Below are positions 2,791 through 34,557 of a DNA stretch of 64,000 nt, one piece after another. Origin of the DNA: Aromatoleum toluolicum (GTDB taxonomy: Bacteria; Pseudomonadota; Gammaproteobacteria; Burkholderiales; Rhodocyclaceae); NCBI RefSeq assembly GCF_012911005.2, contig NZ_WTVS01000001.1:1-64000 (forward strand), written 5' to 3'. The notes beneath the pieces are model-generated. The model saw only the letters and a program-made list of their open reading frames with translations, was not told the origin of the DNA and did not search any database. A program made the translations under genes and the position numbers. Position 1 is the first letter of the stretch, and the number at the start of each line of letters is the position of its first letter.

Positions 2791-2800
2791 TGATTGCTCC

Positions 2801-4069: not shown

Positions 4070-4076
4070 GCTGGCC

Positions 4077-5330: not shown

Positions 5331-5626
5331 TGGACTTCCCCGATCATCGTGATCGCCCGCTGCGGGCACTCGTTCGCGCAGATGCCGCAGCCCTTGCAGG
5401 TGTTGAGGTTGAAGTCGAACCACGCGGCGTGCTCCTCGACGCACTGCACCGGGCAGTAGAGCCAGCACACCGCGCATTTCACGCATTTGTCGCGGTTCAC
5501 CACCGGGCGCATGCTGCGCCAGTCGCCCGGCAGCATCGGGCTGACGACGGTGGCGACCGGACAGAGGTCGTCGGGGACGCCTGCCTGCTCGAGGTTGAAG
5601 AGCGGATAACTGTGGTGCCGGCTCAT
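5327..5626 (-). CDS. padF: Phenylglyoxylate dehydrogenase, delta (ferredoxin) subunit
   Basis: Small iron-sulphur subunit of 99 residues. The C-terminal half holds two ferredoxin motifs, CVKCAVCWLYCP (followed by VQC) and CKGCGICANECP, predicting two [4Fe-4S] clusters of the PorD type. The N-terminal ~45 residues have no cysteine motif and probably pack against the other subunits. Both ends overlap the neighbours by ATGA (padE before, padG after), a compact arrangement usual for genes encoding subunits of one complex. Confidence 0.9.
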   Translation of the reverse strand: MSRHHSYPLFNLEQAGVPDDLCPVATVVSPMLPGDWRSMRPVVNRDKCVKCAVCWLYCPVQCVEEHAAWFDFNLNTCKGCGICANECPQRAITMIGEVQ

Positions 5627-6195: not shown

Positions 6196-6266
6196 CTCGT
6201 CTCCTCCTGCGTTGCAGGGTGCGGGGCTCGTCGACCCCGCGTTGTCATTTGTGCCGCGAACTTCAC

Positions 6267-6360
6267 GTAGGGCGGGAGAAGCGAAGCGCATCCCGCCAAT
6301 CGACCGTTCCCGACTCGACCACCATTCGGCGGGATCCGCCTTCGGCTCCTCCCGCCCTAC
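6267..6360. repeat. REP-like paired hairpin between padD and padE
   Basis: The element begins GTAGGGCGGGAG and ends CTCCCGCCCTAC, so the ends are inverted copies. Each half can also fold alone: GGCGGG...CCCGCC at about 6271-6296 and again at about 6328-6356, with AAGCGAAGCGCAT or a similar loop between. This GTAGGGCGG-AAGCG-CGCC pattern is the form of REP/BIME-type elements common between genes of Rhodocyclales and pseudomonads. Inside an operon such structures can cause RNA processing, pausing or protection of the upstream padBCD message. Confidence 0.75.
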
Positions 6361-6368
6361 CTTCGTGC

Positions 6369-7277
6369 CTACGCTCCCCCCCAACCGGGTTTCACTGCCG
6401 GACCGGCCGGGCCGCGACCGCGCACCGGCAGGTGCGGAATCGCGAAGCCCTGCGTGTAGGCCGCGCGCCGTACCAGCGTGTACTTGAACCACCAGCCGCT
6501 CGCGACCGCGATCAGACCGGCAAGGATCAAGGCCGGACTCGCCAGCGGCGCGCCGATCACGCCGACCAGCAGCAGGATCGCGGGCAACAGGTTGCCGTAC
6601 TTCAGGAACTGCCCGTCGATCGCTGACAGCGCGCGCAGGCTGCCTTCCGGGGCGCCGTCGCTGCGCAGGCTGCGCAGGTAGTTGCGCCACAGCAGCACAC
6701 GGAGCAGGAGCAACACCAGCGCGGCCGTCGCCACCGCGATCTGCCCGGCGACCTGCGGAATCACGAAGGGCGCCGCGACCGCCAGCAGGCTCGCGCCCTC
6801 GGCAAACCCGGTCGCCGCTACGAGCGGCATGCAGCGCGGGTGGCGCCAGGCCGGGATGCCCTTGTCCGCCGCGAGGATGCGCGCCTGCGCATAGACGAAA
6901 CAGGCACCGAAGATCCCGGTGAGCAGGACAAACAGGCTTTGCCCCGTCGCCAGTGCCAGCACGCCGGAGCCGAACACGAAGGGCGCCACGGCGGCCTCAC
7001 GCGTCATCCACGAGGTCGCGAGATGGCGATACACGTTGAGCGCGCGCCACGGCTTGCCGATCTCGAACCACACGCAGGTGAGGCCGATGCCGATCAGCGC
7101 CATGCCGGCGACGAGCAGTGCGCGCACGTCCGTGCCCCACAGGCTGGCAAAGGCCGCAAAGGCGAGGAGCCCGCCACCCGTGCCGCCAGCGATGAAGTTC
7201 GACGCCGCGCGCCAGTCCCAGTTGTGCTGCTGGTGGGGCGAGAAGCGGTCGCCGGATCGGATTTTCGCGGCTTTCAT
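6369..7277 (-). CDS. padD: Phenylacetyl-CoA:acceptor oxidoreductase, membrane anchor (PadD)
   Basis: Hydrophobic protein of 302 residues with about eight predicted membrane segments, of the DmsC/NrfD class of quinone-reducing anchors. After a cytoplasmic N-terminus (to about residue 25) come blocks such as GGLLAFAAFASLWG, ALLVAGMALIGIGLTCVWF and ATAALVLLLLRVLLW. It holds PadB and PadC at the inner membrane and passes electrons to quinone. The ATG at 7277 overlaps the padC stop as ATGA. It contains no haem-ligand pattern I can recognise, as usual for NrfD-type anchors. Confidence 0.88.
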   Translation of the reverse strand: MKAAKIRSGDRFSPHQQHNWDWRAASNFIAGGTGGGLLAFAAFASLWGTDVRALLVAGMALIGIGLTCVWFEIGKPWRALNVYRHLATSWMTREAAVAPFVFGSGVLALATGQSLFVLLTGIFGACFVYAQARILAADKGIPAWRHPRCMPLVAATGFAEGASLLAVAAPFVIPQVAGQIAVATAALVLLLLRVLLWRNYLRSLRSDGAPEGSLRALSAIDGQFLKYGNLLPAILLLVGVIGAPLASPALILAGLIAVASGWWFKYTLVRRAAYTQGFAIPHLPVRGRGPAGPAVKPGWGGA

Positions 7278-7921
7278 TTTTTGTCCCAGATGTAATACAC
7301 GCCCGGCCCGGTGCCGAGTTCCTCGTGCATGCGGAAGTGCTGCGTCTCGGCGAGCAGGCGGCTGACCTTGCTGTCCGGGTCGTCGAGGTCGCCGAAGGCC
7401 ATCGCGCCGGAGATGCAGGAATTGACGCAGGCCGGCGTGACGTCCGGGTCGCGCCCGGGCACCTGCCCGGTCTTCGCCGCGAGGTCGATGCGGTCGATGC
7501 AGAAGGTGCATTTCATCGACACCGCGATGCGCGCCGGGTCGAAGCGCACTTCCTCGGACTTGATCGGCTTGTCGCCGTAAGCGAACTTCACGTCATGCAC
7601 GATCGAGCGCGCTTCGTACGGACAGGCCATCACGCAGTTCGCACAGCCGATGCAGGTGTCGTAGTCGATGGCGACGAGGCCGTCGGGGCGCTTGGTCGTG
7701 GCCTTGGTCGGGCACACCTCCTCGCACGGCGGCTCGTCGCAGTGCATGCACGCGACCGGCACGAAGCTGCGGCGCACGTCCGGGAATTCGCCCGTCTCGA
7801 GGTCCAGCACGCGGCGCCACTGCACGCCCGGCGGGGTCGCGTTGGCGTTCTTGCACGCGGCGGTACAGGTCTGGCAGCCCACGCAGCGGCGCAGGTCGAT
7901 GGCCATCACGTAGCGGGTCAT
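7274..7921 (-). CDS. padC: Phenylacetyl-CoA:acceptor oxidoreductase, iron-sulphur subunit (PadC)
   Basis: Electron-transfer subunit of 215 residues in the DmsB/NarH-like family. Four ferredoxin motifs are visible: CVGCQTCTAACK near the N-terminus, CMHCDEPPCEEVCP, CIGCANCVMACPY and, split by an insert, CTFCIDR with PACVNSCISG. This predicts four [4Fe-4S] clusters carrying electrons from the molybdenum subunit to the anchor. Start at 7921 overlaps the padB stop as ATGA and has AGGAGG four bases upstream. No export signal is present, so the complex should face the cytoplasm. Confidence 0.92.
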   Translation of the reverse strand: MTRYVMAIDLRRCVGCQTCTAACKNANATPPGVQWRRVLDLETGEFPDVRRSFVPVACMHCDEPPCEEVCPTKATTKRPDGLVAIDYDTCIGCANCVMACPYEARSIVHDVKFAYGDKPIKSEEVRFDPARIAVSMKCTFCIDRIDLAAKTGQVPGRDPDVTPACVNSCISGAMAFGDLDDPDSKVSRLLAETQHFRMHEELGTGPGVYYIWDKK

Positions 7922-10674
7922 ACAGCCTCCTTGCGTTCGACCTTGCGCACCGCGACGCGCACGATGTCCGAGCCCGAGCCGGTGGCATCCGTCAGTTCCA
8001 TCGACATCGGCGCGATGGTGTTCAGGCTGGGCATGCCGAAATCCTTGGCGACGGGCGTCGCCCAGTGGTCGAACTGGCCGAGGATCACCAGCGTGTCGGG
8101 ACGCACGCCCTGGGCGAGCACCGCGTCGCCGTAGGTCGCGCCGATGTGCGAGCGCACCTCGATGCGATCGCCGTCGCTGATGCCCAGGCTCTTTGCGGTC
8201 TTGGCGTTGATGATCACGCCGGTGTGACCACGCACGTTCTGTGCGACCTCGCGCATCAGCGCGATGCTGGCGTTGCCGCCGGTGTGGTACTGCATGCTCT
8301 TGGTCGCCAGCAGCCACAGCGGGAAATCCTCGGGCTTGCCGCCGGCGTTGGCGATCTGCTGCGTCCAGCGCCCCGGCACGTCGTGCCACTCGGGGAGCGC
8401 CGCGTATTCGGACAGCTGCTCGTCCCACCAGTGCATCTTGTGCTCGTGCAGGCGGTTGCCGAGCTCGCGGCCGATTCGCAGCAGGCGCTCCTGGTAGGGC
8501 ATCTCGTAGCGCAGGCCCTGCTTTTCCAGCGTGGGGCTCAGGTACCACTCGGTCTTGGACATCGGCACGGTGTAGAAACCGTGCTCCTTGAACCACTCCA
8601 GGTCATGCACCTCGCGCCCTTCGCTCAGGCTCGCACTCGACGCACGGCACACGGCGTCCCAGATCTCCTCGACACCGTGCTCCTTGCTCGCGTCGAGGCT
8701 GTAGTCGTAGCCGTCCGCCTTCAGCGGCGCGCCGCCGCCCGCGCCGCGGTTGAGCGCGTTGTTGTAGGCCTCCAGCAGGCCGGTGCGCTTGGCGAGCTGC
8801 GTGCTGATCCAGGTGAAGTCGCGCGTATCGCCCTGCGCCTCGACCGCCGGCTGGCGCAGCACCACGCCGCGATGCTCCCAGAACTGCTCGACGAACTTGG
8901 TGCCGCCGACCTTGATCATCTGCAGCGATTCGAGGTCGGTCGCCTCGGGCAGCAGCAGGTCCGCCATCCAGTTGGTCTCGTCCAGCGTGTAGGCGAAGGA
9001 CACCGTGAAGGGGAACTTCGCGATCTCCTCGACCAGCGTGCGCGTGTCCCAGAACGAGATCGCCGGATTGGTGCGGTAGATGAACCACACGTCGGGCAGC
9101 GTCGGCAGGGGCATGTTCCAGTCCGACGGCACTTCGCGCTGGAACATCCACGCGAGTTGCGTCGGCCCCAGCGCCTGGCTCCACGCCGTGTTGCCGACGA
9201 TGGGCACCAGCGTGCGGTGGATGTTGCGCCCCGTGGGCTTCGCGACCCAGTGTTCCTTGTCGGTCGGGTTGAAGTACTGCGCCATGAAGCCGTCTTCACC
9301 GGCTTTCACGCTCAGCAGGCGGTTGTCGTGCGGGCGGTTCAGGCGCACCGTCGTGCCCAGCGTGCCGCCGGGGTTTTCCAGTGCACCGACCAGCGTCGCG
9401 AGCAGCGTGCGCGCCCAGCAGCATTCGAACGCACCCCAGCCGTTATTCACCGACTTGCCCAGCGTGACCGCGACGGGGCGCAGCGGCAGCGTCTGGCCGT
9501 CGATCTCGATGGTCTCGCCGATAGAGGCGTTCTCCAGATACTCGTTGGCGATGCGGCGGATCGTCGCGGCGGGCACGTCGCAGATCGACTCGGCCCATTC
9601 GGGCGTGTACTTCGCCATGTGCTCGACGAGCTTCGTGTAGGCGGTGATGCCTTCGGCGACGTCGAACTGCTGCCGCGCGTCGTCGGCGTCGATGCTGATT
9701 GCACCTTCGACACGGAAATGTCCCGCCACTGCCGGTACTGCGCCTTCTGTGTCGAAGGGCACGGCGCGGCCACTACGTTCATCCCACAACAGCGGCTTGC
9801 CCGATTCCGCGTCGCGCAGGTACAGGCCGTCGGGTCCAACGAGATAGGGCGACGAGCTGCGATCGCGCAGGAAGGCCACATCGAGCTTGTCCAGCCCCTG
9901 CTCGCACACCAGCACGTGGATCAACGCGAACATGAAGGCCGGATCGGTCTTCGGGCGGATCGGCACCCATTCCGCCGAACAGGCACCCGTCACCGACAGG
10001 TGCGGCTCGACCTGCACGCGCTTGTAGCCGCGCACCCGCGCGTCGGCATGGCGCGTCACCGCGCAGGGGCCACCCGAGGCTTCGACGTTGGAGCCGATCG
10101 AGATCACGTAGCGCGCGAGCGGCGTGTCCGCAGCGACGGTGAAGCCGCGGTGCCAGAACTCGCCGTACAGGTGCTCCGAATGCACGCACTTCACGCCCTG
10201 GCCGGAGCCGAAGCTGTAGTCGATCGGGCCCCACGCGGCGAGGAAGGCCGGCAGCGAGCCCATGTACATGCCGGGCGTGCCGCCATGCCCGAAGGTCGCG
10301 GCGACGCGCGGCAGACCGGAGTCATCGACCAGCCCCTTCGCGCGCACCGACGTCAGCTTTGCGCTGACCAGGTCCAGCGCCTCGTCCCACGAGATCGGCA
10401 CGAAGCCCGGATCCTCTTTGCGCCCCTTCTTCGGGTTGGTGCGCTTCATCGGCTGCAGCACGCGGTGCGGGTTGTAGGTCTTCTGCACTAGGCCGTAGGC
10501 CTTCACGCACACGCGACCGCGCGCCGGATGGATGTCTTCCGCGGCGAAGTTGGGCTCGATCTCGGTCGCGACGCCGTCGACGACCTTCACGTTCATGAAG
10601 TCCGGTCCGGCCACGCAGTTGTAGCAATAGGTCGGGACCTTCCGCACCGATTGCGGATTGGTAGTTGAGGACAT
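7918..10674 (-). CDS. padB: Phenylacetyl-CoA:acceptor oxidoreductase, molybdopterin subunit (PadB)
   Basis: Large subunit of 918 residues in the DMSO reductase superfamily; with PadC and PadD it oxidises phenylacetyl-CoA to phenylglyoxylate using quinone. The catalytic region includes SIGSNVEASGGP and long molybdopterin-binding blocks, and the C-terminal MopB-type domain contains GISDGDRIEVRSHIG. There is no twin-arginine signal, so the enzyme is cytoplasmic. The N-terminal Fe-S motif is reduced: C17-x2-C20 then C56, with proline/aspartate (24-25) where a third cysteine usually sits. The ATG at 10674 follows GGGGGAGAC; a much longer reading frame runs into fdhD and is not the gene. fdhD ends 20 bases upstream. 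Confidence 0.9.
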   Translation of the reverse strand: MSSTTNPQSVRKVPTYCYNCVAGPDFMNVKVVDGVATEIEPNFAAEDIHPARGRVCVKAYGLVQKTYNPHRVLQPMKRTNPKKGRKEDPGFVPISWDEALDLVSAKLTSVRAKGLVDDSGLPRVAATFGHGGTPGMYMGSLPAFLAAWGPIDYSFGSGQGVKCVHSEHLYGEFWHRGFTVAADTPLARYVISIGSNVEASGGPCAVTRHADARVRGYKRVQVEPHLSVTGACSAEWVPIRPKTDPAFMFALIHVLVCEQGLDKLDVAFLRDRSSSPYLVGPDGLYLRDAESGKPLLWDERSGRAVPFDTEGAVPAVAGHFRVEGAISIDADDARQQFDVAEGITAYTKLVEHMAKYTPEWAESICDVPAATIRRIANEYLENASIGETIEIDGQTLPLRPVAVTLGKSVNNGWGAFECCWARTLLATLVGALENPGGTLGTTVRLNRPHDNRLLSVKAGEDGFMAQYFNPTDKEHWVAKPTGRNIHRTLVPIVGNTAWSQALGPTQLAWMFQREVPSDWNMPLPTLPDVWFIYRTNPAISFWDTRTLVEEIAKFPFTVSFAYTLDETNWMADLLLPEATDLESLQMIKVGGTKFVEQFWEHRGVVLRQPAVEAQGDTRDFTWISTQLAKRTGLLEAYNNALNRGAGGGAPLKADGYDYSLDASKEHGVEEIWDAVCRASSASLSEGREVHDLEWFKEHGFYTVPMSKTEWYLSPTLEKQGLRYEMPYQERLLRIGRELGNRLHEHKMHWWDEQLSEYAALPEWHDVPGRWTQQIANAGGKPEDFPLWLLATKSMQYHTGGNASIALMREVAQNVRGHTGVIINAKTAKSLGISDGDRIEVRSHIGATYGDAVLAQGVRPDTLVILGQFDHWATPVAKDFGMPSLNTIAPMSMELTDATGSGSDIVRVAVRKVERKEAV

Positions 10675-10694
10675 GTCTCCCCCGTTTTGCTTTT

Positions 10695-11513
10695 TTAGTG
10701 AACCCGCTCGGGGTGGGAATAGATGCTGTGGCGCTCGCCACGCGCAAAGCCGATCAGGGTCAGGCCGGCGGCCTGCGCGACGCGCACCGCCATGCCGGTC
10801 GGCGCCGAAACCGCCGCCACCACCGCGATGCCGACCGCCGCCGACTTCTGCACGATCTCGTAGCTCGCGCGGCTGGTCATGAACAGGAAACCGTCGTTGA
10901 AGGAACGCTGCTGCGCGGCGATGGCGCCGATGAGCTTGTCGAGCGCGTTGTGCCGGCCGACGTCCTCGCGCACGAACTCGACACGGCCGTCGAAGCCGCA
11001 CCACGCGGCGGCATGCACGGCGCCGGTGAGGTCGAACAGATGCTGGCGCGACTGGAGCTCGGCCTGGGCGCGCTGCAGGGCGCCCGCGTCGAGCATTCCC
11101 GTCGCGCCGACTTTCGCGATCGGACGACAGGCGAGCTGATCGAGGCTTTCGACGCCGCAGATGCCGCAGCCAGTGCGCCCCGTCATCGCGCGACGGCGCG
11201 CCCGCAGCTGGGCGAAGCGCTCGCCCGCCAGCTGCATCTGCACCTCGGTGCCGTGAGCGTGCTCGACGACCTCGATGTCGAGGATCTCGCGGACGTTGCT
11301 GGCGATGCCCTCGCTCAGGCTGAAACCGACGGCGAAGTCCTCGAGGTCCTGCGGCGTGGCCATCATCACTGCGTGCGAGAACCCGTTGTACACCAGCGCG
11401 ACCGGCACTTCCTCGGCCACGGAATCCGCGGCGCGGACCGCAGCACCATCGGTCCACCGGTCCACGTCGTACATCCCGTGAGCATCCGCCATCGAAACCG
11501 CATCGTGCCGCAT
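10695..11513 (-). CDS. fdhD: Molybdenum cofactor sulphurtransferase FdhD
   Basis: FdhD passes sulphur to the bis-MGD cofactor of formate dehydrogenase-like enzymes. The 272-residue product has the conserved redox pair in RTGCGICGVESL and the later FVREDVGRHNALDKLIG and TSRASYEIVQK blocks. I took the ATG at 11513, which has GAGG six bases before it; an in-frame start at 11591 would add residues unlike the family and lies in the predicted promoter. It is the first gene of the pad operon, 20 bases before padB, so its job here is probably maturation of the PadB cofactor rather than formate dehydrogenase, which is not in the window. Confidence 0.9.
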   Translation of the reverse strand: MRHDAVSMADAHGMYDVDRWTDGAAVRAADSVAEEVPVALVYNGFSHAVMMATPQDLEDFAVGFSLSEGIASNVREILDIEVVEHAHGTEVQMQLAGERFAQLRARRRAMTGRTGCGICGVESLDQLACRPIAKVGATGMLDAGALQRAQAELQSRQHLFDLTGAVHAAAWCGFDGRVEFVREDVGRHNALDKLIGAIAAQQRSFNDGFLFMTSRASYEIVQKSAAVGIAVVAAVSAPTGMAVRVAQAAGLTLIGFARGERHSIYSHPERVH

Positions 11514-11582
11514 CGTCCACCTCGCAAACCGGATTTGTGTCGCCTGCCGATACCGACGCCCAAGATCCGACGTCTTGCGTTC

Positions 11583-11611
11583 ACGATACAAACTGATCGA
11601 TTATTGGTCAA
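11583..11611 (-). promoter_or_regulatory. Sigma-70-like promoter of the fdhD-pad operon
   Basis: On the minus strand TTGACC (11611-11606) and TATCGT (11588-11583) are 17 bases apart, a good -35 and a fair -10 element. Transcription would begin near 11576, about 60 bases before the fdhD ATG. The promoter lies inside a seven-base inverted repeat and downstream of an FNR-type box, which makes it more credible than the hexamers alone. Confidence 0.55.
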
Positions 11612-11624
11612 GTTTTCTGTATCG
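11584..11624. promoter_or_regulatory. Inverted repeat embracing the pad promoter, candidate repressor operator
   Basis: CGATACA at 11584-11590 and its exact complement TGTATCG at 11618-11624 enclose the predicted -35/-10 region. The left arm overlaps the -10 hexamer. The divergent PaaX-type regulator is the obvious candidate to bind here. The link between site and protein is inference. Confidence 0.5.
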
Positions 11625-11640
11625 CTTTTTTCCTCATTGT

Positions 11641-11654
11641 TTGATTTGCATCAA
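11641..11654. promoter_or_regulatory. FNR/Anr-type box
   Basis: TTGATTTGCATCAA matches the FNR consensus TTGAT-N4-ATCAA at all ten defined positions. Its centre (11647.5) is about 71.5 bases upstream of the predicted pad transcription start, a spacing used by class I FNR sites. It predicts anoxic activation of the pad operon. Confidence 0.75.
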
Positions 11655-11792
11655 TAACGCAGAATACCCCCGCGCGCCTTTGCGACGGACTCCGCCGCGC
11701 GTTCATTTCCCGCGCCTCGGACATGGCGTTAGAATCGACCGACCCCATCACGCTCGCGCCCCGCGGACATACGAAATAACGGTGCAAAAACA

Positions 11793-12749
11793 ATGAAAAG
11801 CCGTTTCCTCGAACAGTGGATCAGCGACTACCTGGCCGAGCGCCGGGTGCGCGCGAACTCCCTGATCATCACCGTGTACGGTGACTTCATCGCCCCGCAC
11901 GGCGGCACCGTCTGGCTCGGCAGCTTCATCCGGCTGGTCGAGCCACTGGGGCTGAATGAGCGCATGGTGCGCACCAGCGTGTATCGCCTGTCGCAGGACA
12001 GCTGGCTGGAATCGGAACAGATCGGGCGCAAGAGCTACTACAGCCTGACGGCATCCGGCCGCCGGCGCTTCGAGCACGCCTACCGCCGCATCTACGACAC
12101 GCCGCAGGAGAGCTGGAACGGCGAATGGCAACTGGTCGTGCTGCCTTCCACGCTGGGCTCGCCGGAGCGCGACACGCTGCGCAAGGAGCTGTCGTGGGCA
12201 GGCTACGGCAACGTCGCGCCGGGGGTGATGGGACACCCGTCGGCCGACACCGCGACGCTGACGGAGATCCTCCAGGACACCGGCACGCAGGACAAGGTCG
12301 TGCCGCTGCAGGCGGCGACGCTGGGCGCGCTATCGACCCGGCCCTTGCAGGATCTCGCGCGCGAATGCTGGAACCTCGACGAGATCGAGGCGACCTACCG
12401 CGAGTTCTCGGACCGCATGCGCCCGGTGTTGCGCTCGCTGCGCAGCACGCGCAATCTCGATCCGGAACAGTGCTTCCTCATCCAGACGCTGACGATGCAC
12501 GAGTTCCGCCGCGCGCTGCTGCACGACCCGCAGCTGCCCGCGCAGCTCATGCCGCGCGACTGGAGCGGCACCGCCGCGCGCACGCTGTGCCGCGACCTCT
12601 ACCACATCACGTGGCGGTACTCGCAGCAGCACCTGATGGCGGTGTGCGAAACGCCGGCCGGTGCACTGCCACCGGCAGCGTCATATTTCTACGAACGTTT
12701 CGGCGGACTCGATCGCGAGCCGGTGGCGGCGGAAACGACGCCAGGGTGA
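11793..12749 (+). CDS. PaaX-family transcriptional repressor
   Basis: A 318-residue regulator of the PaaX family, whose members sense phenylacetyl-CoA in phenylacetate catabolism. The N-terminal winged helix is visible in ANSLIITVYGDFIAPHGG and NERMVRTSVYRLSQDSWLES; the C-terminal part keeps the family pattern LIQTLTMHEFRRALLHDPQLP and YHITWRYSQQH. It is transcribed away from the fdhD-pad operon with 279 bases between starts, so it most likely represses that operon and perhaps itself, relieved by phenylacetyl-CoA or phenylacetate. Which ligand is used cannot be read from sequence. Some strains may call the equivalent gene padR. Confidence 0.85.
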   Translation: MKSRFLEQWISDYLAERRVRANSLIITVYGDFIAPHGGTVWLGSFIRLVEPLGLNERMVRTSVYRLSQDSWLESEQIGRKSYYSLTASGRRRFEHAYRRIYDTPQESWNGEWQLVVLPSTLGSPERDTLRKELSWAGYGNVAPGVMGHPSADTATLTEILQDTGTQDKVVPLQAATLGALSTRPLQDLARECWNLDEIEATYREFSDRMRPVLRSLRSTRNLDPEQCFLIQTLTMHEFRRALLHDPQLPAQLMPRDWSGTAARTLCRDLYHITWRYSQQHLMAVCETPAGALPPAASYFYERFGGLDREPVAAETTPG

Positions 12750-12763
12750 CCGTGGGTGCCTGA

Positions 12764-12784
12764 GCGCCGCACCGCGTGCGGCGC
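12764..12784. terminator. Hairpin between the convergent paaX-like and ferredoxin genes
   Basis: GCGCCGCAC, a three-base loop CGC, and GTGCGGCGC form a perfect nine-pair stem in the 79-base gap where two convergent genes end. No T tract follows on either strand, so it is a weak or factor-assisted terminator at best. Confidence 0.5.
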
Positions 12785-12828
12785 ATCAGCCGAAGGTATC
12801 GTCCGCGGGATGATCGTTTCGAGGCCGC

Positions 12829-13110
<282 letters not shown>

Positions 13111-13950
13111 TCACAGCGCGAAATCGGCTTCCAGATCGGCCACCGCCGCCGCGCCCTTCGGCTCGGGCTGGTAGGCGGGGCGGTCGCCCTTGTACAGCAC
13201 CTTGCCGACGTTGAAGCCGTCGTCGGTCATCAGCCGGCGCGCAGCGCGCGCGGCGTCGTCGGTGACATCCACTGCCGCGGTGCGCACCATGTGCTTCCAT
13301 TCGAGCTGCTCGGGGCGGAAGGTCACGCACGGACTCAGCACCTGCACCATCGAGAAGCCCGGGTGGCGGATCGCCTGCGTGATGATGTCGGCGACGTTGT
13401 TGGGGTCCGAGCTCGAGCAGCGTGCGATGAAGTTCGCGCCCGCGGCGAGCGCGACGACCAGCGGGTGGAAGGATTCGATGCCGGCGCCGTCGGGGGTGAG
13501 CTTGCTGCCTTCCCAGTCCGGGTCGGTGGTGGGCGAAGCCTGGCCCTTGGTCATGCCGTAGACCTGGTTGTCCATGACGATGTAGGTGAGGTCGACGTTC
13601 CTGCGGCAGGCGTGCAGGAAGTGGTTGCCGCCGATCGAGAAGCCGTCGCCGTCGCCGCCCGTGACGAGCACGGTGAGGTCGGGGCGCGCGATCTTGAGGC
13701 CCGTGGCGACCGGCAGCGCCCGTCCATGCACGCCGTGGAAGCCGTACACGCTGGTGTAGGCCGGGATGCGCGAGGAGCAGCCGATGCCCGACACGACGGC
13801 GACGTTCTCGGGGGCGAGCTGCAGCGTGGCGAGCGCGCGCGTGATCGCAGCGAGCACCGAGTAGTCGCCGCAACCGGGGCACCAGATGGGTTTGACGTCC
13901 GACTTGTAGTTCTTGGCGGTGTAGTCCCGCTGCTGTACACAGGCGTCCAT
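13111..13950 (-). CDS. korB: 2-oxoglutarate:ferredoxin oxidoreductase, beta subunit (KorB)
   Basis: Thiamine diphosphate subunit of 279 residues. Motifs include IWCPGCGDYSVLAAI at the N-terminus, VSGIGCSSR, and the TPP/magnesium motif GGDGDGFSIGGNH near residue 100 with NQVYGMTKGQASPT after it, matching KorB/PorB proteins. The ATG at 13950 has GGAG about eight bases upstream; it begins two bases after the korA stop. With KorA it oxidises 2-oxoglutarate to succinyl-CoA and reduces ferredoxin. The pathway role (supplying benzoyl-CoA reductase) is inferred from the fused KorA and the adjacent ferredoxin. Confidence 0.9.
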   Translation of the reverse strand: MDACVQQRDYTAKNYKSDVKPIWCPGCGDYSVLAAITRALATLQLAPENVAVVSGIGCSSRIPAYTSVYGFHGVHGRALPVATGLKIARPDLTVLVTGGDGDGFSIGGNHFLHACRRNVDLTYIVMDNQVYGMTKGQASPTTDPDWEGSKLTPDGAGIESFHPLVVALAAGANFIARCSSSDPNNVADIITQAIRHPGFSMVQVLSPCVTFRPEQLEWKHMVRTAAVDVTDDAARAARRLMTDDGFNVGKVLYKGDRPAYQPEPKGAAAVADLEADFAL

Positions 13951-13952
13951 GC

Positions 13953-15680
13953 TCAGCTCCACTGGGTGATGTGTTCGACGATGGCGCCGGGGCGAACCGC
14001 CAGCGGACCGGGGTGGTGCAGTGCCTTGACCTGACGCGGCAGGTCGTACTGCGCGCGCAGGTAGCGGTGGAACTGCCCGCTGTGCGATTGCTCGACGACG
14101 AGCACGCGTTCGACGCCTTGCAGGGCCTGGGCGAACTTCTCCGGCTGCACAGGGGAGATGAGGCGCACGGCGATGAGTTTCACGGCGTGGCCGGCGGCGC
14201 GCAGGCGTTCGAGCGCTTCGCGCGCGGGGCCGGCGCTGGAGCCCCAGGTGAGGATGGCGGTGTCGGCGTCTTGGTCGCCGGTGATGTCGGCCCAGTGCTC
14301 GCCGTAGTGGTAGCCGGTGAGCTTCCTCAGGCGCTTGTCGAGCTGCGCCTGATGGTCGGAGGCTTGCGACGAGGGGGTGCCGGTTTCGTTGTGTTCGAGG
14401 CCGTCGGCGGTGTAGGTGTAGCCGGCCATGCCGGGGATGGCCATCGGCGACACGCCCGAGGCGGTATTGGCGTAGCGCTTGTACTGCACGCCTTCGGCAA
14501 GGGCGGCGGGCTTTTCGCGCTGGCCGATGAAGCTGACCGCGGCCGAACGCGGCATCACCGCGCGCGCCTGACCCATCGCCTGGTCGGTGAGGACGATCGC
14601 GGCGGTCTGCAGGCTTTCAGCCAGATGCACCGCCCACTGCGTCGTGAACAGGCAGTCGGCGACCGAGGTGGGGGCGAGCACGAGGTGCGGGGCGTCGCCG
14701 TGCAGGCCATACACGGCGATGTTGAGGTCGGCCTGTTCGGATTTCGTGGCGATGCCGGTCGAGGGGCCGACGCGCATGACGTCGATGACGACGATGGGCA
14801 CTTCGGCGGCCACCGCGAGACCGAGCGATTCGGTCATCAGCGCGAGGCCCGGGCCGGAGGTGGCCGTCAGGGACGGGACGCCGCCGTAGGAGCCGCCGAT
14901 GATCTGGTTGATGGATGCCAACTCGTCCTCGGCCTGCACGAGCACGCCGCCGACTTTCGGCAGCGCCGGGGCAAGCCACTCGAGCACTTCCGTGGCCGGG
15001 GTGATCGGGTAGGCGGCGACGAAGCGCACGCCGCCGCGCAGCGCGCCCATGCCGGTGGCTTCGTTGCCGGTGATGCTCCAGCGCTCGCGGGTGGCCGGTG
15101 TGCCGGCGGGGAGCCTGGGTACCGCGGGGAAGTCTTTGGCGGCTGCGACGCCGGCGCGGAAGGCGGCGATGCTCGCGGCGATCGCCTCCTCGCCCTTGCG
15201 CTTCAGGGTGTCGCGCAGCACGCCGAGGACGACGTCCTCGCCGAGGCCGATCATGCCGGCGATGGCGCCGAAGGCGACCATGTTGGGGCGCCCGTCGGGG
15301 ACTGTCTTGGCGAGCGCCTTCATCGGCAACGCGATCTGCTGCGCGCCGCTGCGGGTGAATACTTCGGGGGTCGCGCCTTCGCCGGGGTCGCCGATGATCA
15401 GGCTCTCCGGACCGAGCGGGATCTCGGCGGCGAAACGGCCGACGTTCTGCCAGTCGACGCCGACCAGCAGGTGGAAGCGGTCGTCGTGCGAGGCGATCGG
15501 CTCGGTGCCCAGCCGGATCATCACCGCCGCCTCGCCGCCGCGGATCTGCGGACCCGACGAGCGCGTCATGTACGCGTACCAGCCGGCGCGCGCCGCCGCC
15601 TCCAGCAGCAGGCTGCCCGCGGTCACCACCCCCGCCCCGCCGCTGCCCGCCATCACCAGTGAAACCGTCTGTCCGCCCAT
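13953..15680 (-). CDS. korA: 2-oxoglutarate:ferredoxin oxidoreductase, fused gamma-alpha subunit (KorA)
   Basis: A 575-residue fusion: residues 1 to ~190 are a gamma domain (VMAGSGGAGVVTAGSLL, SSGPQIRGGEAAVMIRLG) and the rest an alpha domain (FVAAYPITPATEVLEWLA, TATSGPGLALMTESLGLAVAAEVP, and near the end VLVVEQSHSGQFHRYLR). This two-subunit layout with a ~60-68 kDa fused chain is that of Thauera aromatica KorAB. The ATG at 15680 has GGAGGG five bases upstream; an extra 25-residue upstream extension lacks homology. It is transcribed divergently from a MarR regulator across 172 bases. Confidence 0.9.
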   Translation of the reverse strand: MGGQTVSLVMAGSGGAGVVTAGSLLLEAAARAGWYAYMTRSSGPQIRGGEAAVMIRLGTEPIASHDDRFHLLVGVDWQNVGRFAAEIPLGPESLIIGDPGEGATPEVFTRSGAQQIALPMKALAKTVPDGRPNMVAFGAIAGMIGLGEDVVLGVLRDTLKRKGEEAIAASIAAFRAGVAAAKDFPAVPRLPAGTPATRERWSITGNEATGMGALRGGVRFVAAYPITPATEVLEWLAPALPKVGGVLVQAEDELASINQIIGGSYGGVPSLTATSGPGLALMTESLGLAVAAEVPIVVIDVMRVGPSTGIATKSEQADLNIAVYGLHGDAPHLVLAPTSVADCLFTTQWAVHLAESLQTAAIVLTDQAMGQARAVMPRSAAVSFIGQREKPAALAEGVQYKRYANTASGVSPMAIPGMAGYTYTADGLEHNETGTPSSQASDHQAQLDKRLRKLTGYHYGEHWADITGDQDADTAILTWGSSAGPAREALERLRAAGHAVKLIAVRLISPVQPEKFAQALQGVERVLVVEQSHSGQFHRYLRAQYDLPRQVKALHHPGPLAVRPGAIVEHITQWS

Positions 15681-15769
15681 CCGACCCTCCGTCTGCGACG
15701 ACTGGAACTGGCGCGTAGGCCACGCACCCCGATGAGCAGACTCTACCGATCGCATTGCTCTCTGTCAAA

Positions 15770-25210: not shown

Positions 25211-26574
<1,364 letters not shown>

Positions 26575-26578
<4 letters not shown>

Positions 26579-28728
26579 TGCATGCTTGCCTCGGCGCCGC
26601 CGTCGGAGCCCACCTCATCGGCGGACAGATGGATGCGGAACCACGCACCGCCCTCGGGGCGGTTGCCGCATTCGATGCGCCCGCCCAGTTCGGACATGAT
26701 CCCGTAGCAGATCGACAGGCCCAGCCCGGTGCCACGCCCGGGCGCCTTGGTGGTGAAGAAGGGATCGAAGACGTGGTCGATGACGCCCGACGCCAGTCCG
26801 GGGCCCTCGTCGAGCACGTCGAGTTCCACCGCGCCGCCAGCCGGACGCAGCACGACGACGACGCGGCCCCGGCCGTCCATCGCGTCGCGGGCATTCTTCA
26901 CGAGGTTGCGCAGCACCTGGTCGAGCAGCGTCGGGTTCGTTGCGACCGCGGGCAGCGGCCCTTCCGTGCGCAGCTCGACGTCGAGGCCGCGGGTCAGGCC
27001 AAGCTCGCGGTACGAATCGAGGCGCTCGCGCACGAGCATCGCCACATCGACGACCTCCAGCGGGACGGCCTGCTTGCGCGAGAACAGCAGCAGGTTGTCG
27101 GTGATCGCCTTGCAGCGCTGCGCCTGTTCCTGGATGGTGGTGAGCCCCTGGCGCAGGACGTCGAAGTCGGGATTCGACTGCGCGCCGGGGATCGACTCCA
27201 TCAGCGCCTGAAGTTCCTCGGCGAAGCCGGAGACGAGGCCGAGCGGGTTGTTGATCTCGTGCGCGATGCCCGACGCAAACTGCCCGAGCGCGCTGAGCCG
27301 GTTGGCCTGCGCGAGCTGGCGCTCCATCTCGCGCCGGGCCGTGATGTCGCGCGCGACGCCGATCACGCCTTCGGGATGCCCGTCGGTGGACAGCACTGCG
27401 GAGCTGACCTCCAGCAGGCGGTTCGGCGCACCGCCCGGCGCGAGCATGATCTCGAACGGCGGGCCGCCCTCCCCCGCCAAGCGCCGGCGGAAGTCGCGGT
27501 CGACGCGCAAGGCCGATGAATGCAGCATCAGATCACTGCAACTGCGACCGATCGCGCGATCGGCAGGCACGCCCAGCAGCTCGGCCATGCGCGCATTGAC
27601 GAAGCTGAAGCGCCCGTCGAGATCGAGGACATACACGGCGTCGTTGATGATGTCCTGGATCTGCTGCTCGCGGTTCTCCAGGCGCGCGGCGTACTCGGTG
27701 AGCTTGCGCTCGCGCTCCTGCTGCGCGGTGATATCGATCGCGAGGCCGCTGTAGCCGACGATCTTGTCGTCCTTGAACACCGGCTCGACCTGCAGGCGCA
27801 TCGGCACCGGCAGCCCCGCGGCATCGCGCATCACGACGTCGAGCCGCGTGGCCGCCCGCACGCTGGCGATGCTCTTGAGGAAGCTCGACGCCTGCGCGCG
27901 GTATTCCGGCAGGACGAGGTCGCGTAGGCGCATGCCCGGCAGCTGTTCGGGCGTGATACCGAGACGCGTGCGCCCGGCCTTGTTGAGCTGCAGCATGCGG
28001 CCCGAGACGTGCAGCGCGAACACCATCTCGGGCAGATCCTCGATGAGGTTGCGGTAGCGCTGTTCCGACGCTTCGAGTTCGCGCGTGCGCTCGTACACCT
28101 TGCCTTCGAGGACGTTGATGCGGTCCTTGATGTTGAGGGGCTGGAAGTACTTGCGCAGGCCTTCGAACTCCGGCGCGCAGTCCGCCGCGTTCATCAGCGT
28201 CCACGAGCAGTGCTCGTCGCCGCGGCCCTCGCATTCGTGCTCGACGCAGATCATGTCGGTCTGGAACACGTAGGACGCGAAGCCCGACGCATAGCCCGCG
28301 AGCGTCCAGCACACCGCTTCGTCGGAGCGCCCGAACAGGCGCAGGTGCTGCTCGGCCTCGTAGGAACGGCGCCAGTTGCCGCTCATGCGGTAATGCCCGC
28401 GCGCGCGGTCGACCTCGACGGTGCGCGTCTCGACCTCCGCGATGCCCGAGAACATGTGCACCCGCGGCCCGCCGCGAACGAACTCTTCCAGCGTGTCGGG
28501 GTGCATGAAGCCGGGCAGTAGGCCGGCGTCCTCGAAGCCGCAGCTGAACCCGTAGCGGGTCAGGATCACCTTCGCGATGTCGGCGCCGAGCGTCTCGACC
28601 AGCTCCTTGCGCAGCGCGCCCATCGCGTCGGTGTGCAGCAGGATGGCGCGCCGGCCGCTGAACTGTATCGCCCCGCTGTCGGGCGAAAACTCCACCAGGG
28701 AGTAGAAATCCAGCTGATCGGCGCGCAT
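26575..28728 (-). CDS. pcrS: Sensor histidine kinase with aromatic-effector domain (PcrS-like)
   Basis: A 717-residue soluble kinase without membrane segments. Residues ~5-115 look like XylR_N (DFYSLVEFSPDSGAIQFSGRRAILLHTDAMG), followed by a V4R domain with the cysteine set CVEHECEGRGDEHC near 170-185, as in DmpR and XylR. Then a coiled linker, two PAS domains (from ~225 and ~350), a HisKA box SGIAHEINNPL with the phospho-histidine near 490, and an HATPase domain (NLVKNARDAM, GTGLGLSICYGI). It probably binds p-cresol or a related phenol in the cytoplasm and phosphorylates the adjacent regulator. Confidence 0.82.
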
Positions 28729-30344: not shown

Positions 30345-31835
30345 TCAGGCAGCGGCCGCGGCGTGGCGCTCGTGCAGCGCGCGCAGCCGTCCCCGCTGCA
30401 GCTTGCCGGTCGGCGTCAGCGGCAGCGCATCGAGCCAATGCACCCAGCGCGGGCGCCGGTGGCCCGGCAATGCGGCGATGCCCTCCTCCAGCCGCTGGCG
30501 TGCCTCGGTCCAGCGGGCAGGCGCCGCGACAACGAGCACCGCCAGCGCCGTCAGGCCGTCTGCCGAATCGACGCCGACCGCCGCGATCTGGTGCAGGGCT
30601 TCGCCGCAGTGTGCCGCCAGCGCCTGTTCAACCCACAGGGTGCTGACCCACTGGCCGGCAATCTTGAGCATATCGTCGTTGCGGCCCGCGTATTCCAGAC
30701 AGCCGTCCGGGTGGCGCAGGAACATGTCGCCGGGCGAGAACCAGCCGTTGTCGAAATCGACCTGGGCGTCGGGCCGCTTCCAGTAACCGACCGCGACCGT
30801 GGTGTGGCGCACCCAGATCCGCTGCGGCAGCTCCGCATCCACGTCCGGATTGAAGCGCACCTCGGTCAGCGGTGTCGGGCGCATCAGGCCCGAGTCGTCG
30901 TTGCTGTAGAGCATCAGGCACAGCGTCTCGGAGGTGCCGTAGCCGCTGATCAGCGCGCATCCGGTCTGTTCGCGCCAGCCCTGGCGTATCGCGAGCGGCA
31001 GCGCCTCGCCGGCCGACACGAAATGGCGGATGCCGCGATCGGCCAGCCGCGCCGCGACGCCGGTCTGCAGCATCTTGTTGTACAGCGTCGGCACGCTGAA
31101 GAGCAGCGTCGGGCGGTGCTTCGCGACCATCTCCTCGACGCGCTCGGCCGTCGGCCATTCGCGGTCCAGGATCACCGTCGCCCCTGCGCGCAGCCCGGCG
31201 AACAGGCTGTTGCCGAGCGCATAGGCGAAGAACAGCTTGGACGTTGCATACAGCCGGTCCGCGGACGTCAGACCGGCGAGATTACAGGCGAAGGAATGGG
31301 CGTTGACGACGACGCGCTGCACATGGATCACGCCCTTGGGCGTGCCCGTCGTGCCGGAGGTACCGATCCACAGGGCCGGCGCCTCGGCATCGAGTTGCAT
31401 GGGCTCGATCCCTTCCGCACGTGCAAACGTCTGCGTCCAATCATGGTCCGCGACGCCGCCGCCGACCACCGCGGGAGCCCCGGGAAGCGTCGCGACCAGC
31501 CCCAGCAGATCCGCTGCCTGCGGCGGCTCGCACCATACGAAACGCGCCTCGCATTCCTTCAGGATCGGCGTCAGCTCAGCCATCGACAGCCGCGGATTGA
31601 CGCCGATGGCCACGCCGCCTGCCCAGATCGCGCCGAGATAGGCCTCGACCCAGTCGTCGCTGTCGGGCGCGAACACCACCACGCGCTCGCCCGGTGCCAG
31701 TCCCAGTGCCTGCCACGCCCCCGCCGCACGCCGCACGCGCTCCCGCAGTTCGGCATAGCTCACCCGCCGCTCGTCGCATTCGATGGCTATCGCGGCATCC
31801 GCGCCTGCCGACAGCAGGATTTCAGCAGCATTCAT
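30345..31835 (-). CDS. hcl: 4-hydroxybenzoate/benzoate--CoA ligase type enzyme
   Basis: Adenylate-forming ligase of 496 residues in the benzoate-CoA ligase subgroup. ATP-binding loop TSGTTGTPKGVIH near residue 160, core motif ISGYGTSETLC, WFSPGDMF and GRNDDMLKIAGQWVS, and the C-terminal lysine in LTPTGKLQRG are all present. Start at 31835 has GGAG upstream; a 49-residue extension further up is unlike the family. Context with the p-cresol genes favours 4-hydroxybenzoate as substrate, giving 4-hydroxybenzoyl-CoA. Benzoate or 3-hydroxybenzoate remain possible. Confidence 0.8.
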   Translation of the reverse strand: MNAAEILLSAGADAAIAIECDERRVSYAELRERVRRAAGAWQALGLAPGERVVVFAPDSDDWVEAYLGAIWAGGVAIGVNPRLSMAELTPILKECEARFVWCEPPQAADLLGLVATLPGAPAVVGGGVADHDWTQTFARAEGIEPMQLDAEAPALWIGTSGTTGTPKGVIHVQRVVVNAHSFACNLAGLTSADRLYATSKLFFAYALGNSLFAGLRAGATVILDREWPTAERVEEMVAKHRPTLLFSVPTLYNKMLQTGVAARLADRGIRHFVSAGEALPLAIRQGWREQTGCALISGYGTSETLCLMLYSNDDSGLMRPTPLTEVRFNPDVDAELPQRIWVRHTTVAVGYWKRPDAQVDFDNGWFSPGDMFLRHPDGCLEYAGRNDDMLKIAGQWVSTLWVEQALAAHCGEALHQIAAVGVDSADGLTALAVLVVAAPARWTEARQRLEEGIAALPGHRRPRWVHWLDALPLTPTGKLQRGRLRALHERHAAAAA

Positions 31836-31987
31836 TCGCACTTCTCCACATTGAGGCGGGTTTCTCAAGAGAAGCCCGTGTAGCCGTCCGGTGAATCGGG
31901 GTGCGCCGAAGGGCGACCGAATTTTTGCGCACGATAGGCTCGGGCGATGACCGGAACAATACGCGGCAACCACTTTCTGCATCGCTT

Positions 31988-32179: not shown

Positions 32180-32232
32180 CAACTGTTTTATTGCAACACT
32201 ACACCCAACCATCAGGACAACAGGAGACGACA

Positions 32233-34557
32233 ATGGGGATCAGGGACAAGGTCGAACAACTGTGCGCACGCATGCACGACACGCCGCAATACGACACGCA
32301 GGGTGCCGTGCTGTTCGTCGACCTCGAGAAGCGCGAAACGCAGCGCAAGTACCTGCCGCTCGAGGTGCTGCGCACCTACCTCGGCGGACGCGGCGCCAAT
32401 ATGTACCTGCTCTACAACCTGCTGCAGGACGGGCGCGAAGCCCTCGACCCCGAAGTCCCCCTGATCTTCGGCGCCGGCACCCTCACCGGCGACATGCCGG
32501 CCGCCACCCGCGGCAACTTCACCAGCCGCTCGCCCGAGAGCGACGCGATCCTCGACACCAACGGCGGTGACTACTTCCCGTCCTTCGTCAAGCGCCACGG
32601 CTACGATCACATCGTGCTATACGGCCTGGCGCCGCAATGGACGCTGCTGCGCATCGCACATGAAGAAGTGCAGTTCATCGACGCGACGCCCTACCTCGGT
32701 CTCGACAACCTCGACCTGCCCGGCGCGATCGAACGCGACTTCGCATGCACCGAACGCAAGGACATGGCGCTCGCCCGCATCACCACCGCCGGCGAGAACC
32801 TGGCGCTGTGCAGCGGCATCATGGGCGGCATCAAGGCGATCTGGGCACGCGGCGGCGGCGGCGCGAAGATGGGTTCGCTGCACCTGAAGGCCATCATGGT
32901 GCACGGCAAGCCGGACGAAGCGCCCAAGGTGGCCGAACTCAAGGCGCACAACAAGGTGATCGGCAAGAAGATCACCTCGACCTCGGTGATCAAGAACGCC
33001 CTCAAGCAGGTCGGCACGCCCTTCCTGTACAAGCCGTCGCGCGTGCTCGGCGCACTCGGCACGCTGAACAATCAGAAGACGGACTGGCACCCGACGCTCG
33101 ACGCCGACAACTTCGACCCCTACCGCCCGGGCATGGACGGTTGCTTCAAGTGCCCGGTGCATTGCCGCAACCTCAACGACATGACCCCCGAGGGCAAGGG
33201 CGGCTGGGGCTCGGCCGCGCTCAAGGGCCTGAAGGGCAACGCCAGCTATGACAAGGCGCAGGCCGACGTCGAGCACGGCAAGCAGCGCACCTACAACGGC
33301 ATCCACAACGACGGCAAGTTCGACCAGTACGACAAGGGCGACGGCCCCGAGTACGTCACCGTCGGCAAGTTCGGCCCGATGATCGGCCTGAAGGAGCCCG
33401 AGCACATCCTGCGCCTCAACAACATCCTCAACGACCTCGGCCTCGACTCGGCCTCGACCGGCAGCGCGATCTCGTGGGCGATGGAGCTGTGGCAGCGCGG
33501 CATCATCGACGCGAGCCACACCGGCGGACTGGACCTGTCGTGGGGCAACTACGAGACGGTCGAGAAGCTGCTGTTCATGACCGCCAAGCGCGAAGGCTTC
33601 GGCGACACCATCGCCGACTCCGCACGCGCCGTCGAGCGCGGCAAGTATCCGGCCGAAGCCCTGGACTACCGCATGGCGGTGAAGGGCCTGTTCCAGTCCG
33701 ACCCGCACGACGCGCGCATCCTCAAGGCCTTCGCGCTGGGCCTGTCGGTCGCCACGCGCGGCATGGACCACCTGCGCAACCGCGTCACGCTCGAGATCAA
33801 CGCCCGCATCAACGACGACGCCGCGTTCAAGACCGAGCTTTACGGCGGCACCGTCGCGGCCGAGCCGAACCGCTACGAGGGCAAGGAATTCGCCGTGCGC
33901 CGCTGCGAGAACACCTTCGCCGTCGGCGACTCGGTGGGCATGTGCCGCTTCAACACCAAGCTGTTCAACTCACCGACGACCCCGGACTGCGGCGACTTCG
34001 CGACCCAGCTGACCACCGCGACCGCGCACGAATTCACCGGCGAGCAGCTGAACGAGATCGGCCGCAACATCACCGGCCTGGAGCGCCTGATCAACTTCCG
34101 CCTCGGCCTGCGCGGCAAGGACGACACCCTGCCGAAGCGCTGGTTCGAGGAACAGATCGAGGTCGGCCCGTTCAAGGGCGAGAAGGTCGACCGCAAGGAG
34201 TTCGAGGCGATGAAGGCGCGCTTCTACGAAGTCACCGGTCTCAACGCCGAGGGCGTGCCCAAGGCCGACTGGCACGAACAGCTCGCCGGCGCCACCACCG
34301 GCTTCGCCGTGCGCATCGAACTGCCGCACCCGCTGCCCGGCGCGCCGGAAAAGGCGATCGTCATCGACGAACCGGTCGCGAACGTCGTCGCACTGCGCGA
34401 CGCCCTGGCCCGCCGCCTGCCCGAAGCCCGCGAGGCGCTCAACGACCATTCGTGGAACATCGCGGTCAACGGCCACATGGTCCTGGCGGGCGAGCGCGAG
34501 ACCGCCCTGCACCATGGCGACCGCGTGGCCTTCGTACCGATCATCGCCGGCGGCTGA
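32233..34557 (+). CDS. Aldehyde:ferredoxin oxidoreductase-family enzyme fused to a MoaD-like domain
   Basis: A 774-residue protein. Residues 1 to ~685 are a tungsten-type aldehyde oxidoreductase: the Fe-S ligands are C304, C307 and C311 (CFKCPVHC) and C571 in FAVGDSVGMCRF. Residues ~690-774 look like MoaD: VVALRDALARRLPEA, then the tail DRVAFVPIIAGG ending in the di-glycine that carries sulphur in MoaD. The ATG at 32233 has AGGAG seven bases upstream. No partner Fe-S or FAD subunit genes follow. In context it may oxidise 4-hydroxybenzaldehyde or another aromatic aldehyde; residues do not show substrate. The AOR relative BamB (benzoyl-CoA reductase) is unlikely given context. Confidence 0.82.
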   Translation: MGIRDKVEQLCARMHDTPQYDTQGAVLFVDLEKRETQRKYLPLEVLRTYLGGRGANMYLLYNLLQDGREALDPEVPLIFGAGTLTGDMPAATRGNFTSRSPESDAILDTNGGDYFPSFVKRHGYDHIVLYGLAPQWTLLRIAHEEVQFIDATPYLGLDNLDLPGAIERDFACTERKDMALARITTAGENLALCSGIMGGIKAIWARGGGGAKMGSLHLKAIMVHGKPDEAPKVAELKAHNKVIGKKITSTSVIKNALKQVGTPFLYKPSRVLGALGTLNNQKTDWHPTLDADNFDPYRPGMDGCFKCPVHCRNLNDMTPEGKGGWGSAALKGLKGNASYDKAQADVEHGKQRTYNGIHNDGKFDQYDKGDGPEYVTVGKFGPMIGLKEPEHILRLNNILNDLGLDSASTGSAISWAMELWQRGIIDASHTGGLDLSWGNYETVEKLLFMTAKREGFGDTIADSARAVERGKYPAEALDYRMAVKGLFQSDPHDARILKAFALGLSVATRGMDHLRNRVTLEINARINDDAAFKTELYGGTVAAEPNRYEGKEFAVRRCENTFAVGDSVGMCRFNTKLFNSPTTPDCGDFATQLTTATAHEFTGEQLNEIGRNITGLERLINFRLGLRGKDDTLPKRWFEEQIEVGPFKGEKVDRKEFEAMKARFYEVTGLNAEGVPKADWHEQLAGATTGFAVRIELPHPLPGAPEKAIVIDEPVANVVALRDALARRLPEAREALNDHSWNIAVNGHMVLAGERETALHHGDRVAFVPIIAGG

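Follow-up and report, generated by a model that had tools for sequence, protein, structure and literature searches.

Is an aldehyde oxidoreductase (AOR)-family protein of Aromatoleum toluolicum truly joined, in one polypeptide, to a MoaD/ThiS-like sulphur-carrier domain, and what might the carrier do there? The question is raised by a gene on the forward strand of the stretch of DNA analysed here (the window; 64,000 nucleotides, contig NZ_WTVS01000001.1, positions 1 to 64,000). The fusion is confirmed, and the proteins that share it form a clade that is a distinct variant of a known architecture: every complete member ends in Gly-Gly (GG), and none has the glutamate proposed as the acid-base residue of AORs. 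The tail is most likely a putative sulphur carrier for the tungsten-pterin cofactor of the enzyme to which it is attached.

Domains and integrity of the fusion gene

The gene and its parts are listed below; residue conservation refers throughout to 76 fusion sequences, namely the window protein and the 75 complete relatives at named loci.

32233..34557, + strand: fusion gene, 774 amino acids plus stop, frame open
32222..32226, + strand: ribosome-binding site AGGAG, read from the sequence, preceding the ATG at 32233
32305..32907, + strand: AFOR_N domain (residues 25-225), Pfam match
32953..34284, + strand: AFOR_C domain (residues 241-684), Pfam match
34297..34554, + strand: MoaD/ThiS-like beta-grasp tail (residues 689-774), from Pfam, the fold model, and profile and fold searches
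34549..34554, + strand: C-terminal Gly773-Gly774, kept in 76/76 fusions

Searching Pfam with hmmscan identifies AFOR_N (E 5.3e-44) and AFOR_C (E 1.5e-88), both above their curated cut-offs, and ThiS at residues 710-774 (E 8.9e-9, scoring 36.2 bits where the cut-off is 22.5). A preliminary description of the locus, made from the sequence by eye, had proposed this search; it had also placed the MoaD-like tail correctly and had recognized that the terminal GG is free. A frameshift or assembly error joining two genes, which it named as one way in which it could be wrong, is rejected because full-length fusions occur in 20 of the 61 genomes searched with the full protein (own genome included): the match spans residues 1-774 at 71–100% identity with no internal stop, and the 20 relatives align gap-free over 774 columns. 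They come from the own genome, 15 of the 16 other members of the genus, three genomes of the same family and one of another family.

The assignment of the tail is supported in several ways. PF02597 (ThiS) is matched by 18/18 diverse tails taken alone, and the best matches of a tail profile in the PDB, weak but top, are E. coli MoaD (1nvi_D, 0.0039; 1fm0_D, 0.004), followed by other MoaD, SAMP and ThiS proteins; NCBIfam MoaD models also match, but under their cut-offs. An AlphaFold2 model built from 62 aligned sequences (the window protein and 61 of the 75 complete fusions; mean predicted local distance difference test (pLDDT) 79, predicted template modelling score (pTM) 0.88) has an AOR fold followed by a confident beta-grasp tail. 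In Foldseek searches, the body matches 1aor with a template modelling score (TM) of 0.83, along with other AORs, and the tail matches the MoaD structures 3rpf_C, 1nvi_D and 1fm0_D (TM 0.73-0.78, E 0.02-0.07; for 1fm0_D, TM 0.78, E 0.07, probability 1.00). Both AFOR domains and the fold match to 1aor thus place the body among AOR/WOR large subunits, and the tail has the sequence family and the beta-grasp fold of ThiS/MoaD proteins. Chance similarity to MoaD/ThiS is rejected by the Pfam, profile, per-tail and fold matches.

Both terminal glycines are among the columns kept in at least 97% of the 76 sequences, and a free C-terminal GG, characteristic of MoaD/ThiS carriers, is found in all 75 complete loci; a GG-ending tail in every complete member is consistent with a sulphur carrier. 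The tail is under purifying selection: its ratio of non-synonymous to synonymous substitution rates (dN/dS) has a median of 0.24 and a maximum of 0.53 (182 of 190 pairs). In the model, residues 772-774 have a pLDDT below 50, which gives the GG end as flexible; active-site stretches are likewise below 50, and the placement of the GG end relative to the active site is therefore unreadable.

Distribution and published relatives

When genomes were scanned with the AOR portions of seven fusions, 212 candidates came up, the best 80 of which correspond to 78 distinct named loci; the tail was not part of the query and hence was not selected for. A stop codon is reached in 75 of these loci, directly after GG in every case (75/75), and the other three run off the contig. 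The carriers belong to Beta- and Gammaproteobacteria and Desulfuromonadales, and include Aromatoleum, Sulfuritalea, other Rhodocyclales, metagenome-assembled genomes (MAGs) of Burkholderiaceae/Comamonadaceae and of Geobacteraceae/Desulfuromonadales, Motiliproteus, Amphritea and Geothermobacter hydrogeniphilus. The fusion is thus present in Rhodocyclales, where the preliminary description suggested looking for it, and is not confined to them. Its distribution is patchy: a class-wide search at E <= 1e-60 found it in 9 of 369 genomes, the own genome among them, each with at least 62% identity and eight full or nearly full length (one is cut by a contig end), and a draw of 398 genomes from the phylum found only the own genome at 1e-45.

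In a tree, the 17 fusions included group together as a fully supported clade whose stem measures 2.86 changes per column; support for the deep forks is weak, and the tree program gives a long-branch warning. No nearest unfused sister was found in the tree, the 369-genome class search or the 398-genome phylum draw. More distant members, perhaps without a tail, may lie among the remaining 132 candidates; the 78-locus scan, limited to the best 80 of 212, does not demonstrate the absence of unfused sisters. Three loci (L048, L053 and L061, in genomes G800, G801 and G802) each carry a pair of fusion paralogues, with 76% and 81-83% identity to the window fusion, encoded on one strand at a distance of 2-5 kb; in some cases a PaaK-like ligase or MarR gene lies in between.

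Aromatoleum has been split from Azoarcus, the genus in which this architecture has been reported. The preliminary description regarded the architecture as the most novel in the window; however, Iyer, Burroughs and Aravind (2006) state in their text that MoaD 'might be fused' to an aldehyde ferredoxin oxidoreductase; for Azoarcus, a table gives it as one that 'is fused carboxyl-terminal' to this enzyme. This is the same arrangement of MoaD at the AOR C-terminus, and a possible role of AOR-linked MoaD in making the tungsten cofactor is raised there as well (PMC1779556). Both the architecture and the idea of an AOR-linked MoaD in pterin synthesis were therefore published previously. That report consists of a clause and a table comment, with no analysis of distribution, active site, context or structure in the text examined, and its Azoarcus protein, from a strain unnamed in the main text, is likely to belong to the window clade (PMC1779556). 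No later description of the fusion was found among the open-access papers listed by the literature searches or in the text examined of PMC6365974, PMC1949818, PMC2948915, PMC11323500, PMC12096430 and PMC13328260. Within the literature searched, the loss of Glu313, the adjoining insertion, the spread of the fusion and its link to 2-oxoacid oxidoreductase and MarR genes are new.

A close described counterpart is the pair of WorL, likewise a large pterin subunit, and its ThiS-like partner WorX, which is encoded beside class I WORs and is predicted to act in pterin synthesis; the role of the ThiS/MoaD-like gene beside many WORs is stated there to be unknown (PMC13328260). WorX is a separate gene beside WorL, whereas the window tail is joined in frame and so is not a WorX in that sense; a word search of the main text of the same paper finds no mention of a WorL–WorX fusion ('fusion' 0 times, 'fused' once, unrelated). 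The AorABC enzyme of A. aromaticum shares the AOR family, MoaD-like proteins in the operon (aorD/aorE) and a phenylalanine/aromatic setting, but has three subunits, is NAD-linked and is accompanied by separate MoaD-like proteins (PMC6365974). MoaX of M. tuberculosis likewise fuses a MoaD domain to a partner of the same pathway; that partner is MoaE, however, and its GG is internal and must be cleaved (PMC4326299), whereas here the partner is an AFOR protein and GG is C-terminal, so that the fusion is not of the MoaX type. In Thermococcus, GOR depends on a MoaD-family ubiquitin-like protein (Ubl) for its tungsten cofactor (PMC11323500).

Active site and gene neighbourhood

The residues of the AOR body that bear on its chemistry are as follows.

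33142..33165, + strand: CX2CX3C (C304/C307/C311), [4Fe-4S] ligands by homology
33943-33945, + strand: C571, the fourth cysteine, [4Fe-4S] ligand by homology
33190..33336, + strand: inserted segment of about 45 residues (about 320-368) immediately ahead of GPEY, from alignment
33355..33357, + strand: V375, the position of Pyrococcus AOR Glu313, from alignment
33769..33771, + strand: H513, the position of Pyrococcus AOR His448, from alignment

All four cysteines lie where the preliminary description had put them and are invariant (76/76); we take them to be the cluster ligands from homology to solved AORs. The two DxxG motifs, presumably pterin-binding, are also kept (D405 and D566 in 76/76, D401 in 74/76), and with the cysteines they are typical of the AOR/WOR family. 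The second shell listed for AORs comprises Thr243, Glu313, Tyr427 and His448 (PMC12096430, PMC13328260), and Glu313 is described as universally conserved in known AORs and as the proposed acid-base residue (PMC12096430). In positions assigned through alignment to Pyrococcus AOR, the Glu313 place is never Glu (Val 60, Ile 13, Thr 2, Ser 1), and in this respect the proteins depart from aldehyde-oxidizing AORs in the strict sense. A second AOR in the own genome (L011), 29-33% identical to the AOR part of the fusion, has Glu at this position. The insertion is present in all 16 fusions aligned (window + 15) and is absent or much shorter in 20 unfused AOR-family proteins. Because of the missing Glu, the label of 'aldehyde oxidoreductase' holds as a family name that carries no demonstrated function: the family stands, by its AFOR domains, and the function that the preliminary description attached to it is uncertain.

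These features raise the possibility, appreciable if clearly less probable than not, that the clade performs another tungsten-pterin chemistry, such as ferredoxin-driven reduction of aryl acids or aryl-CoA; this would be compatible with a carrier tail. The loss of Glu313 in every member, with an insertion adjoining, agrees with such a change, as do the long stem of the clade and a second clade, of five unfused comparison proteins, that also lacks the GPEYE segment and whose tested member (L162) is BamB-like, matching the benzoyl-CoA reductase BamB at 3e-229. On the other hand, much of the second shell is retained: the His448 position is His in 76/76, Tyr312 (Y374) and Glu311 (E373) are kept in 74/76 and 75/76, and Thr243 (T262) is Thr in 62/62. 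The Tyr427 position (H492) is His in 62/62, as reported for one characterized, working AOR (PMC12096430). Given the low pLDDT of the active-site model, another acid may also replace Glu313 unseen. The loss of Glu313 amid retained second-shell residues makes the clade a test of the mechanism proposed for AORs.

The surroundings of the gene bear on the same point. The neighbours in the window that matter here are listed first.

30345..31982, - strand: divergent gene upstream of the fusion, benzoate/3-hydroxybenzoate-CoA-ligase-like, under NCBIfam cut-offs
25211..28728, - strand: XylR_N/V4R/PAS sensor kinase and sigma-54-type (NtrC-type) response regulator, from domain search
13111..13962, - strand: 2-oxoacid:acceptor oxidoreductase beta subunit; 16/78 loci have relatives of it close to the fusion, median 76% identity
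13953..15755, - strand: 2-oxoacid:acceptor oxidoreductase alpha subunit, matching TIGR03710 above its cut-off; 21/78 loci have relatives of it close to the fusion, median 70% identity
15853..16314, + strand: MarR regulator; relatives near the fusion in 22/78 loci, median 69% identity

No separate small subunit lies beside the fusion gene, as the preliminary description had noted. Its neighbours are the CoA ligase, with a PcaK-like transporter also among the divergent genes, and downstream an open reading frame (ORF) of 75 residues with no Pfam match, followed by an RND efflux operon on the opposite strand. In the window the fusion stands alone, away from the 2-oxoacid oxidoreductase and MarR genes, which lie 16 kb from it beside phenylacetate genes. 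In one locus (L114), counterparts of these genes stand just upstream of the fusion, with 77-85% (oxidoreductase) and 80% (MarR) identity to the window genes, and in 13 loci the MarR gene is the next upstream on the same strand as the fusion. Among the 78 loci, the fusion is found near genes for the 2-oxoacid:acceptor oxidoreductase alpha family (30) and its thiamine pyrophosphate (TPP) subunit (16), PaaK-like CoA ligase (27), small ferredoxin (15) and NDP-forming acyl-CoA synthetase (13); these counts are approximate, as the genes come from a simple picking script and each family is named from one representative per cluster, and the loci differ in flank (at least 8 kb upstream in 54/78) and include many close relatives. 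In nine Desulfuromonadales-type loci their place is taken by indolepyruvate ferredoxin oxidoreductase-like genes, which score under NCBIfam cut-offs (one of them is truncated where the locus ends); TRAP transporter genes often accompany them. Most PaaK-like neighbours are only distant relatives of the window PaaK (median identity 34%, best 69%), and a 'rubrerythrin-like' neighbour cluster has no NCBIfam family name.

Window positions 114-15755 hold PaaK, PadI, PadH and PadG (phenylglyoxylate dehydrogenase models), all above NCBIfam cut-offs, together with a 1200-residue molybdopterin oxidoreductase, a PaaX-like regulator and the 2-oxoacid:acceptor oxidoreductase; we take these genes to be the anaerobic phenylacetate route. 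Taken together, the gene context suggests aromatic/2-oxoacid catabolism in which ferredoxin acts as the carrier, and the fusion protein is likely a ferredoxin-linked oxidoreductase of such catabolism. CoA ligases and 2-oxoacid:ferredoxin oxidoreductases as neighbours would also suit a reductive chemistry. A sigma-54 promoter was looked for because of the NtrC-type regulator nearby and is rejected: the window has three matches at one mismatch against 4.9 expected, none of them before the fusion gene.

A proposed role for the tail

The reading that we prefer, with a probability of about 0.55, is that the tail is a putative sulphur carrier for the tungsten-pterin cofactor, private to the fusion enzyme or preferential for it. 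The protein would be a WorL-type member of the AOR/WOR family, a pterin oxidoreductase with a single subunit whose C-terminal domain was once a separate WorX/MoaD-like partner. An E1-like enzyme (MoeB) would adenylate Gly774, after which the tail would be thiocarboxylated and would give sulphur for the pterin dithiolene, via MoaE where MoaE exists, and the cofactor would thus be made at, or preferentially for, the fusion enzyme. Electrons would pass between ferredoxin and the oxidoreductase part, which would hold one [4Fe-4S] cluster and a bis-pterin metal, presumably tungsten; its partners would be 2-oxoacid:ferredoxin oxidoreductase and aryl-CoA ligases, and its substrate most simply an aldehyde or acid from the aromatic/2-oxoacid route. 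With a covalent fusion and an unvarying free GG in three bacterial groups, a WorX-type role can be tested through one gene, its tail and a deletion.

The own genome encodes a single MoaE, next to a ThiS/MoaD place, and has five ThiF-family (E1-like) places and ten ThiS-family places, fusion included. Of 41 fusion-bearing genomes, 33 gave a MoaE, including all 18 whose stated quality is good. An arrangement from which the fusion could arise is seen in L156 (G803:C69) and L175 (G033:C52), where an unfused AOR-family gene is followed, after one stop, by an in-frame MoaD-like ORF ending in GGG. Kinship of the tail to these ORFs or to the MoaD of the own genome is unsupported; its matches to ThiS/MoaD proteins of the own genome (n=3) are weak (E 0.0004-0.004).

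Several observations weigh against this scheme. MoaE was not found in the other 8 of the 41 genomes; these are seven MAGs, possibly incomplete, and the isolate Geothermobacter (G813), and MoaC is present in six of them and missing from two. The claim of the preliminary description that the enzyme could supply sulphur for its own pterin is therefore upheld in part: the free GG fits a carrier, but direct supply would require a synthase partner such as MoaE. The own genome has ThiS/MoaD places beside MoaE and near its second AOR, so that a private carrier is not strictly needed, and the fusion is one of several possible sulphur carriers there. The tail also evolves faster than the AOR part (dN/dS 0.24 against 0.12) and has a smaller invariant fraction (0.35 against 0.53-0.61, in 20 relatives). 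The tail profile matched neither MoaD-like ORF of L156 and L175 at E 0.01, and no molybdenum-cofactor gene occurs among the 20 neighbour-cluster representatives scanned. Finally, the missing Glu313 weighs against ordinary aldehyde oxidation.

Some of these points would suit a tail that serves as a docking or recruiting module, which would bind cofactor machinery (MoeB, MoaE or a MoeA-like insertase) for delivery to the apo-enzyme and leave sulphur carriage to other MoaD proteins: all 20 fusion genomes examined hold other ThiS-family places (3-11 each, counting the fusion and thiamine-type ThiS), and faster evolution of the tail than of the body is in keeping with such a part. A docking module would not require an exact GG terminus, yet each complete locus has one, and we consider this explanation rather unlikely.

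The eight MoaE-negative genomes also suggest a combination of two ideas, which we regard as improbable: an enzyme of new chemistry, lacking Glu313, whose tail would sulphurate the dithiolene in such genomes (e.g., Geothermobacter) via an acceptor other than MoaE, perhaps an enzyme-bound pterin precursor, with the cofactor sulphurated on its user. In Geobacter metallireducens, moaE is absent and moaD and moeB are retained, and the working of molybdopterin synthase is called unknown (PMC2700814). The absence of MoaE is not general in Geobacteraceae, since the fusion-bearing members G816 and G819 have it; in the genomes without MoaE, the fusion protein bears on how molybdopterin synthase works.

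Use of the GG tail for protein conjugation, in the manner of SAMP or Ubl proteins, or for self-conjugation that regulates the enzyme, is highly improbable: the weak family and fold matches of the tail do include SAMP1, and Thermococcus Ubls perform both jobs (PMC11323500), but a 774-residue enzyme is implausible as a modifier of targets, and no JAB-type protease is encoded among the 20 representatives scanned. Equally far-fetched is proteolytic release of free MoaD, an option raised by the preliminary description for which nothing speaks except the precedent of MoaX, which is cut after an internal GG: no cleavage is needed and none would bring a gain because GG already forms the C-terminus, no cleavage motif was noticed (no search for such motifs was made), and the stretch 685-709, less conserved than the AOR body and no less than the tail itself, says little about processing.

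Four further ORFs concern the wider carrier inventory. Stand-alone MoaD-like ORFs ending in GGG occur in two MoaE-negative genomes, at L182:3735-3959 (G813) and L187:3505-3729 (G815), in what appear, from the position and look of their neighbours, to be AOR clusters; they bear on the molybdopterin synthase question in Geobacteraceae. The own genome has a ThiS-like and a ThiF/E1 domain in one open frame of 632 residues (L012; G000:C227:13407-14774), a further fusion that involves a sulphur carrier, and a ThiS-family ORF of 89 residues ending in SGG directly after a 372-residue ORF (L019:1354-1623; G000:C248).

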